NCBI GenBank assembly: GCA_018432315.1
Contig: JAHDLB010000018.1
Location: forward strand, 62,001 to 126,000
Reading direction: 5' to 3'
From: Anaerolineae bacterium
GTDB lineage: Bacteria; Chloroflexota; Anaerolineae; Aggregatilineales; Aggregatilineaceae
Length of the DNA stretch: 64,000 bases
How positions within the stretch are numbered: the stretch's first letter is position 1; every line of letters begins with the position of its first letter. Shown piece after piece: positions 57,149 through 58,560 of this stretch. The notes below the pieces were generated by a model. The model was not told where the DNA came from. It searched no databases and saw only the letters and a list, made by a program, of their open reading frames with translations. Made by a program: the position numbers and the translations under genes.

Positions 57149-57328
57149 GATGAAAAGTACCCCTCCTAAAATGGGCAGCGCCCAAAACGCGATGCATCAG
57201 TGGCTTTCAGAGCTCACAAACTCGAATTTGCGGGTCTGAACAGCGAACAGACAACAGGGCGAATTTTACCGCGATTAGGCACAACGGGGCAAAACATTGT
57301 TTTCAAATTGACGTGTTCTCAATGCGAT

Positions 57329-58333
57329 CTATTCGAACAACCGGGCGATCTCGTCGCGCGCGGGCCGGGCCAGCGCGCCACGCCGCACGTCCACCACGCC
57401 CGCGCCCTGCCCGGCCACACGCCCCAGGACGTGCACGGCAATCCCCGCCTGTTCGAGTGCCCGCCGGCTCTGCTCCGCATGATCCGCCTGCACGGTCAGC
57501 AGCAAAGCCCCGGACGCGATCGCCCCTGCCGGGTCGAGGCCCAGTGTCTCGCAGATCGCCTTGCCTTCCGGCAGCCAGAGGGGATGATCGCCGCTCAAAT
57601 CGACTTCCAGGCGGCAGCCGCTGGCCTCTGATAGCTCCCACAGCCCGGTTAGCACTCCGCCTTCCGTCGGATCGTGCATGCTGGTCACGCCACCCGCCGC
57701 CACGGCCACCTGCGCATCGCGCACCACGCTGATCCCCGGATCGTGCAACAAACCCGCACAGCGATCGATCTCCTCAGCGGAGAAAAACGGCAGGAGCGCC
57801 TCGCGCTTTTCGCGCGCCAGGATCGCGGTTGCTTCGAGGGGTGCCCCTTTGGTGAGCATGATCACGTCGCCCGGCTGGGCGCCGCCGGTGCGAATGAGGC
57901 GATCCTTCGCCACCTCGCCCAACATGCTGCCCACCACGATCGGGCGATCGATGCCGTAGGTGATCTCGGTATGCCCGCCGACCACAGCGACGTTCAGCGA
58001 GCGGCACGCCGCTGCGATCTGCTCGAAGATCGACCGGACCAGTGCCGTCGTCGCGTGCGCTTCCGGCAGCAGCAGGGTCGCCATGAACCACAGCGACGTC
58101 GCGCCGGTCGTCGCGATGTCGTTCGCGTTGATGTGCACGGCGTACCATCCGATTTCATCCGTCGCAAATGTGATCGGATCGATCTTCGCCACCAGGTACC
58201 GGTCCGGCATGTCGATGACCGCCGCGTCTTCACCCACGCTCGGCCCCAGCACGACGCGCGGCCCGCCCGGCAGCAGCGCCATCAGGTCCGCGAGGGGCTC
58301 AGGGGGCAGTTTTCCAACAGGAAGCCGGGTCAT
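57329..58333 (-). CDS. AIR synthase-family (HypE/SelD/ThiL-like) protein
   Basis: A 334-aa ATP-binding protein of the AIR synthase/PurM superfamily: SVGEDAAVIDM (phosphate loop), KIDPITFATDEIGWYAVHINANDIATTGA (typical D-x-I-x-x-x-x-D-D/E-x-G...N-D), GGHTEITYGID and MHDPTEGGVLTGLWELSEASG, the last like HypE. No HypE C-terminal Cys (…PRIC) is present; the C-terminus is …ARDEIARLFE. So it is not carbamoyl transferase HypE; a role in Fdh or hydrogenase maturation is only inferred from context. ATG 58333 has GGAGGG before it, directly after the leader terminator. It may be expressed from fdhD readthrough and from the promoter at 58532. Confidence 0.85.
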   Translation of the reverse strand: MTRLPVGKLPPEPLADLMALLPGGPRVVLGPSVGEDAAVIDMPDRYLVAKIDPITFATDEIGWYAVHINANDIATTGATSLWFMATLLLPEAHATTALVRSIFEQIAAACRSLNVAVVGGHTEITYGIDRPIVVGSMLGEVAKDRLIRTGGAQPGDVIMLTKGAPLEATAILAREKREALLPFFSAEEIDRCAGLLHDPGISVVRDAQVAVAAGGVTSMHDPTEGGVLTGLWELSEASGCRLEVDLSGDHPLWLPEGKAICETLGLDPAGAIASGALLLTVQADHAEQSRRALEQAGIAVHVLGRVAGQGAGVVDVRRGALARPARDEIARLFE

Positions 58334-58351
58334 GGTTTTCCCTCCAAAAGC

Positions 58352-58378
58352 AAGGTCCCCGAGCGAGTCGGGGACCTT
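58352..58378 (-). terminator. Terminator/attenuator in the leader of the AIR synthase gene
   Basis: AAGGTCCCCGA and TCGGGGACCTT form a perfect 11-bp stem with a five-base loop; on the minus strand GCTTTT follows, then the GGAGGG ribosome site. It lies between the leader ORF and ATG 58333, so it is an attenuator candidate. Confidence 0.75.
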
Positions 58379-58386
58379 CCGTTGTG

Positions 58387-58433
58387 GGCGCCGTGACACC
58401 TTATAGACAACCAAGGAGGGGTGTCACAGCGCC
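58387..58433 (-). promoter_or_regulatory. 14-bp leader hairpin covering the end of the leader ORF
   Basis: On the minus strand GGCGCTGTGACACC (58433-58420) pairs with GGTGTCACGGCGCC (58400-58387), 14 of 14 pairs with one G-U. The loop contains CCTCCTT, complementary to the leader ORF's own AAGGAGG. Confidence 0.6.
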
Positions 58434-58457
58434 GATTTTGGTACTACAATCATTCAT
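58401..58457 (-). CDS. 18-aa leader ORF with perfect Shine-Dalgarno
   Basis: ATG 58457 to TAA 58401 encodes an 18-residue peptide (MNDCSTKIGAVTPLLGCL) with Cys at positions 4 and 17. AAGGAGG (58472-58466) stands eight bases upstream, a complete match to anti-SD. It is too short to identify by homology. Context (promoter, hairpins, terminator, gene) suggests a leader peptide or a small-protein gene. The stop codon falls in the loop side of the 14-bp hairpin, so ribosome position could switch the structure. Translation is inferred only from the SD. Confidence 0.5.
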   Translation of the reverse strand: MNDCSTKIGAVTPLLGCL

Positions 58458-58466
58458 CGACACCAC

Positions 58467-58497
58467 CTCCTTCTGTTTGGGATGGCAAGAGAAGGAG
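58467..58497 (-). promoter_or_regulatory. Hairpin that can sequester the leader-ORF ribosome site
   Basis: On the minus strand CTCCTTCT (58497-58490) is perfectly complementary to AGAAGGAG (58474-58467), which contains most of the SD of the 18-aa ORF. The loop is 15 bases. Confidence 0.55.
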
Positions 58498-58531
58498 CGC
58501 TGGTCAGTTGGGTTCCGACCAACTTAGATAG

Positions 58532-58560
58532 ATTATGTCATAGTCAAGCAGGTATGTCAA
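58532..58560 (-). promoter_or_regulatory. Near-consensus promoter inside the fdhD stop, for leader and AIR synthase gene
   Basis: On the minus strand TTGACA (58560-58555), exactly 17 bases, CATAAT (58537-58532). It overlaps the end of fdhD. It is followed by a ~190-base leader. Confidence 0.75.

Follow-up and report, generated by a model that had tools for sequence, protein, structure and literature searches.

A probable stand-alone small gene of Chloroflexota encoding a short peptide and a putative three-segment RNA switch

Leader-peptide attenuators of the trp and erm type place a short open reading frame (ORF) over mutually exclusive RNA helices that are followed by a terminator, and an actuaton is a small RNA (sRNA) unit in which readthrough of the terminator feeds a downstream gene. 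The unit analyzed here lies on the minus strand of a 64,000-nt stretch of an Anaerolineae bacterium of the phylum Chloroflexota (assembly GCA_018432315.1, contig JAHDLB010000018.1, positions 62,001 to 126,000; hereafter, the window), and all motifs are read on that strand. Like the trp and erm leaders, it has a short ORF overlapping exclusive helices and a terminator; however, the gene downstream of it is not fixed, and no conserved pairing was seen in competition with the terminator. We know of no dual-function sRNA or actuaton for which pairing among a Shine-Dalgarno (SD) sequence, the interior of an ORF, and a segment past the stop codon has been described. The dual-function sRNAs (VcdRP; PMC8672173) and the actuatons of Synechocystis (PMC5386190) resemble the unit in being stand-alone transcripts of sRNA size that contain an ORF, with the likeness to actuatons limited to the window, where readthrough may also yield a protein-encoding mRNA. 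Type I toxin mRNAs, such as the example from Helicobacter pylori (PMC6733600), share with it a short ORF whose SD is hidden by alternative pairings in the nascent RNA. However, the peptides of the present family are not membrane-like (e.g., MDSSIKPSAVASLLK), being short and polar to mixed by eye rather than hydrophobic, and the unit is single-copy and chromosomal. A search of the window with ARAGORN found no tRNA-like domain of a transfer-messenger RNA.

The cyanobacterial sRNA ncl0160 (Mitschke et al. 2011, as cited in PMC4734099) is described as a stand-alone transcript conserved in 83 of 89 cyanobacteria, whose 23- to 25-codon ORF lies behind a ribosome site, mostly with ATG starts and with TAA/TAG stops (PMC4734099). 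Where PMC4734099 treats ncl0160, it mentions neither a switch nor a function, nor any relative in Chloroflexota, and no further papers naming ncl0160 were found in the literature searched. Judged by sequence only, the Chloroflexota unit is also stand-alone, with its ORF behind a strong ribosome site and one copy per genome, whereas its peptides have 14 to 22 residues and other C-terminal ends, compared with 23 to 25 in ncl0160. Because of this difference in peptide length, we class the Chloroflexota units as relatives of ncl0160 and not as ncl0160 itself.

Distribution and RNA structure of the unit

The best explanation of this locus, to which we assign a probability of roughly 0.68, is a stand-alone single-copy chromosomal small gene that encodes a short peptide together with a three-segment RNA switch. 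That it is a stand-alone conserved gene is nearly certain. The unit is conserved, present in single copy, and independent of its neighbors; its stem covaries, its reading frame is kept, and one segment inside the ORF (segment 2) is complementary to two partners. A preliminary description of this DNA had named a promoter, an SD, an 18-codon ORF, a 14-bp stem, and a terminator, all of which are present at the coordinates below.

58532..58560, minus strand: sigma-70-type promoter TTGACA-N17-CATAAT with 11 of 12 consensus matches, predicting a transcription start near 58525
58501..58522, minus strand: 5' hairpin TTGGTCGGAACCCAACTGACCA, without conservation in the family
58490..58497, minus strand: upstream anti-SD CTCCTTCT, present only in some close relatives
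58477..58488, minus strand: TTGCCATCCCAA, with the conserved GC[CT]ATC motif upstream of the SD
58459..58474, minus strand: SD AGAAGGAGGTGGTGTC, a perfect ribosome site
58459..58472, minus strand: segment 1, the extended SD AAGGAGGTGGTGTC
58401..58457, minus strand: 18-codon ORF MNDCSTKIGAVTPLLGCL with two Cys, its stop codon immediately 5' of segment 3
58420..58433, minus strand: segment 2 in its role as 5' arm of the 14-bp stem, GGCGCTGTGACACC
58413..58425, minus strand: segment 2 in its role as anti-SD, GACACCCCTCCTT, complementary to segment 1
58413..58419, minus strand: CCTCCTT inside the loop of the 14-bp stem
58387..58400, minus strand: segment 3, the 3' arm of the 14-bp stem, GGTGTCACGGCGCC
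58346..58378, minus strand: intrinsic terminator, an 11-bp stem (58352-58378) followed by GCTTTT
57329..58333, minus strand: downstream AIR-synthase-related (HypE/ThiL/SelD-like) gene with its ATG at 58333

Related Chloroflexota carry the unit ahead of the same AIR-synthase gene, with the promoter, the GCCATC motif, AAGGAGGTGGTGTC, and an 18-codon ORF (e.g., MHDSSTMRSAVTPLLLVK) all recurring; these relatives also keep the GTGACACCCCTCCTT segment, a stop codon that abuts GGTGTCACAGCGC, and a terminator whose sequence varies. Covariance models were built from 12 sequences (model 1), 26 sequences (model 2), and 79 diverse members (model 3). With model 1 the unit was found in 16 of the 18 genomes of the window's family (E < 1e-23), including six without the AIR-synthase gene, and the other families of the window's own order were mostly without a recognizable copy. 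Model 2 matched one copy each in 239 of 396 genomes of the class Anaerolineae (E ≤ 1e-3). Across the phylum, model 3, which was partly trained on these genomes, matched 138 of 400 at E ≤ 0.01 and 113 at E ≤ 1e-3, with weaker matches in other Chloroflexota classes, in Cyanobacteria, and at two Armatimonadota loci. The same model matched 66 of 146 cyanobacterial genomes, almost always once each (best E, 8e-8), and 10 of 121 Armatimonadota, among which loci L268 and L270 look real when inspected; the first Armatimonadota match and a match in Nitrospinota were not real on inspection. A Planctomycetota control gave matches in 6 of 99 genomes at E ≤ 0.01 and none below 1e-3, and those inspected were not real. 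There was no second copy in the window's own genome, where the next match had an E value of 0.66, and no match was obtained for two exact patterns in viral contigs or for one cyanobacterial query in plasmids. An Rfam search that covered the window together with 32 related loci of two phyla, at gathering and at permissive thresholds, returned only noise and left the unit unmatched.

In the window the 14-bp stem of GGCGCTGTGACACC and GGTGTCACGGCGCC (pairing 2:3) is perfect, and AAGGAGGTGGTGTC and GACACCCCTCCTT (pairing 1:2) can form 13 bp around a single bulged U. The leader folds at -85.8 kcal/mol, compared with -64.6 kcal/mol in shuffles (z, -5.1). Covariation of pairing 2:3 was scored in 79 distinct sequences over 13 modeled pairs of the stem, and two-sided compensatory changes were present at 13 of 13, with 94.5% of cells paired and a score of 0.522, compared with 0.205 for shuffled sequences and at most 0.112 with slid partners. 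The alignment model contains this stem and so favors it, but the many pair types are not explicable by that alone. In two distant relatives the change is coordinated in all three segments, which read GGTGC/GCACC/GGTGC where the window has GGTGTC/GACACC/GGTGTC. For pairing 1:2, 85.3% of cells were paired, with 53 two-sided cells (versus 21.8) and a score of 0.256 (versus 0.194 shuffled), and the informative column changes from A-U (46) to G-C (22) within GGTG[A/G]TG. The median energy is -23.3 kcal/mol for the duplex of the SD with segment 2 and -29.5 kcal/mol for the 2:3 hairpin, and in 73 of 81 members the duplex is more stable than 95 or more of its 100 shuffles. In computed ensembles the median open probability of the SD core is 0.01 without segment 3 and 0.17 with it. 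The GC[CT]ATC motif precedes the SD in 73 of 81 members. At three loci (L184, L186, and L193; element at 1501-1629), an extra hairpin of 20 to 30 nt lies between the stop codon and the 3' arm.

The proposal of rival, switch-like pairings of the SD is supported in the family. Of the two anti-SD segments originally suggested, the one inside the ORF is conserved and, at 13 bp, longer than had been stated, whereas the upstream CTCCTTCT lacks conservation; six nucleotides complementary to the member's own SD occur in the 5' leader of 21 of 81 members (8.9 expected) and of 5 of 12 tested members of the window's family, and on these counts CTCCTTCT was rejected as a conserved part of the family. Extended SDs and GC-rich hairpins are common, and chance pairing around an ordinary promoter and terminator might be suspected for that reason. 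However, the unit recurs as a single copy with covariation in hundreds of genomes, which refutes chance pairing and leaves it a negligible probability. Conservation, covariation, and presence of the ORF in relatives, which had been named as checks, all came out in favor of the preliminary description.

The exposed loop sequence raises another explanation. The 3' tail of 16S rRNA reads GGAUCACCUCC, and segment 2 (GCAUCACCUCC) resembles it and stands in or beside the 2:3 loop in most members. A trans-acting sRNA could use this loop anti-SD (CCUCC/CACCUCC) to bind the ribosome sites of other mRNAs, or its extended SD could act as a 30S decoy, with the ORF gating which face is exposed, and the stand-alone, single-copy nature of the unit would suit such a role. 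However, pairing with the unit's own SD explains the same bases, and the frame of the ORF is kept beyond the needs of a bare sRNA, so we regard action in trans as rather doubtful. Derivation of the SD from an antisense 16S rRNA tail was rejected, as members read GGTGATGCC and not GGTGATCC; the 16S rRNA tail pattern was not found in the window's own assembly.

The open reading frame and the cyanobacterial form

The short ORF is kept across relatives, as the preliminary description had supposed it would be if real. In nearly all 81 members the start codon lies 7 to 12 nt past GGAGG and the stop either immediately precedes the 3' arm or falls no more than a few bases from it; some carry a longer insert between the two. 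ORF lengths in Chloroflexota are mostly 14 to 20 codons (range, 14 to 22 residues), and the distance from the ATG to a fixed base of segment 2 is 28, 31, 34, 37, or 40 in 72 of 77 members, so that length changes by threes. The residues that are kept are D-S-S near the start, encoded by AGT-AGT also where the genome is GC-rich, and AV[AT][SP]. Codon-position entropies showed the third position to be no freer than the first and second, which we attribute to the interior codons also sitting in two helices. Selection on the peptide itself appears likely but is not proved. At locus L206 (508-605) the ORF is broken after 9 codons with the RNA segments intact, reflecting either a sequencing error or loss of the peptide, and the ORF of L203 is best read from GTG.

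These features could mean that the peptide is the product and that the RNA structure merely tunes its synthesis. The frame-preserving length changes, the conserved D-S-S and AV[AT], and a 23-residue peptide kept in cyanobacteria all fit this explanation. However, the kept interior residues coincide with the bases of the two RNA helices, the third codon position shows no excess freedom, and the C termini vary, as do the lengths; we consider it unlikely that the peptide alone is the output.

The cyanobacterial matches contain a 23- to 24-codon ORF (e.g., MIESSKSMGHQVAVSRLCAGAVL) behind AGGAGGTGATGCCCATG, with an ATG start and TAA, TAG, or TGA stops, once per genome, and their neighboring genes are also variable. 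Within this ORF, CATGGGT can pair with GCCCATG, which hides the start codon, or GGGTC can pair with GACCC past the stop; a comparison of 17 sequences showed two-sided changes at 12 pairs of a long stem between the ORF and the region past the stop. These matches are very probably ncl0160, an assignment made from the published description of ncl0160 and not from its sequence. Two further matches, L252 and L255, near base 1518 (plus strand) in cyanobacterial genomes of about 2 Mb, share this SD context, here followed by an ORF of 23 codons that encodes a hydrophobic peptide (MKISITEKALLLILLITIMLELF in one), and may represent a related gene or chance.

Neighboring genes

In the window the unit is flanked upstream by fdhD and downstream by the AIR-synthase-related gene and then the membrane pyrophosphatase gene hppA (named from sequence), and it had been read as a leader of the AIR-synthase gene with a tie to formate dehydrogenase maturation. 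A survey of 68 loci, with genes called by longest ORF and orientations approximate, found AIR synthase next downstream in 21, hppA in 6, and neither in 41, the next gene being convergent in 26 of these 41. Named downstream genes include those for phosphofructokinase (Pfk), an HNH endonuclease, a short-chain dehydrogenase, ornithine cyclodeaminase, an L,D-transpeptidase, and SurE. A promoter scoring 11/12 precedes 39 of 81 members and none of the shuffled sequences, and a terminator-like hairpin lies within 60 nt downstream in 75 of 80 members, compared with 5 of 80 when shuffled. Because these scores far exceed those of the shuffles, the unit has its own promoter and terminator, and because the downstream gene varies, it is a stand-alone gene. 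A leader specific to AIR synthase or to hppA was rejected on the basis of the variable neighbors, and the link to formate dehydrogenase is unsupported because fdhD is upstream in just 6 of 68 loci, all of the window's own family. The anatomy first described is mostly real, but the object is a family-wide small gene and not a leader of AIR-synthase or formate dehydrogenase genes.

A less specific form of the leader idea is a cis-acting attenuator of an AIR-synthase/hppA operon, in which translation of the leader peptide would choose between termination and readthrough. The arrangement in the window lends itself to this: the AIR-synthase ATG lies 13 nt past the terminator tail and the gap holds no promoter-like site, so the gene may be fed by readthrough and is probably reached only in that way. 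AIR synthase comes next in 21 of the 68 loci and hppA in 6 more. However, a codirectional gene is often absent, and in the six genomes of the window's family that lack the AIR-synthase gene hppA lies 100 to 300 nt further down behind its own promoter-like site. The terminator itself is kept but its bases vary freely, and no conserved antiterminator or other pairing partner was seen by eye, without a dedicated search. We therefore consider the transcription attenuator that had been proposed quite improbable as an explanation of the family.

A conserved promoter-like CGCGGTAAAAT...GTTGTCT precedes hppA in the window's family (window 57149-57330, minus strand, and L123 to L128), which suggests that hppA has its own promoter there. 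The protein encoded at 57329-58333 has AIRS and AIRS_C domains and scores below the cutoffs of the HypE, ThiL, SelD, and PurM models; it belongs to a PurM superfamily subfamily spread over Chloroflexota, Armatimonadota, Rokubacteria, and others.

A possible translation-sensing switch

In the mechanism that we propose, the unit would comprise a promoter, a transcript of about 180 nt, an intrinsic terminator, and a peptide of about 14 to 20 residues. Segments 1 (the SD and, in cyanobacteria, also the start codon), 2 (in the ORF interior), and 3 (just past the stop) would pair as either 1:2 or 2:3. In nascent or idle RNA, segment 2 would close the SD; once segment 3 is finished it may compete segment 2 away, so that 2:3 forms and the SD is freed, at least in part, or gated anew. 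A ribosome moving along the ORF would disrupt first 1:2 and then 2:3; a ribosome that has reached the stop codon would cover the base of segment 3 and have the strongest helix-opening effect. As ribosomes would open both helices, we propose that the fold of the RNA reports whether the unit is being translated. We lean towards self-gated translation of this kind, and each of the single outputs that might be envisaged (peptide, RNA acting in trans, or local readthrough) remains doubtful when taken singly.

Several points weigh against the three-segment switch gene as we interpret it. The E values of the covariance models are approximate, and the alignments are biased in favor of the modeled stem; homology of the cyanobacterial matches rests on E values of 8e-8 or weaker and on common anatomy. 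Pairing 1:2 has two-sided changes at 4 pairs, which is no better than shuffles, and is the weaker of the two by covariation because the SD itself cannot vary. The computed ensembles keep the SD mostly closed even when segment 3 is included. AIR synthase, directly downstream and codirectional in 20 to 21 of the 68 loci, is commoner than a random neighbor, and a cis role at those loci is therefore possible. Finally, we infer from sequence that the unit is transcribed and translated in vivo, in what order it folds, and that it switches.

It is conceivable, and we offer it tentatively, that an ancient RNA-peptide gene of Chloroflexota, Cyanobacteria, and some Armatimonadota senses its own translation and signals in trans, for example, through an exposed anti-SD. 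Such a gene would be a stand-alone reporter of ribosome availability without a described counterpart, and a unit that does sense translation would serve two large phyla as a general regulator. The structure offers a concrete switch in which three exclusive segments are tied to ribosome position. At a minimum, the results place the cyanobacterial sRNA ncl0160 in the context of a deep family, and the covariation can guide the design of mutants in tractable cyanobacteria. The family adds a single-copy chromosomal RNA gene, missing from Rfam, that is present in most of the Anaerolineae genomes sampled and apparently extends across phyla.
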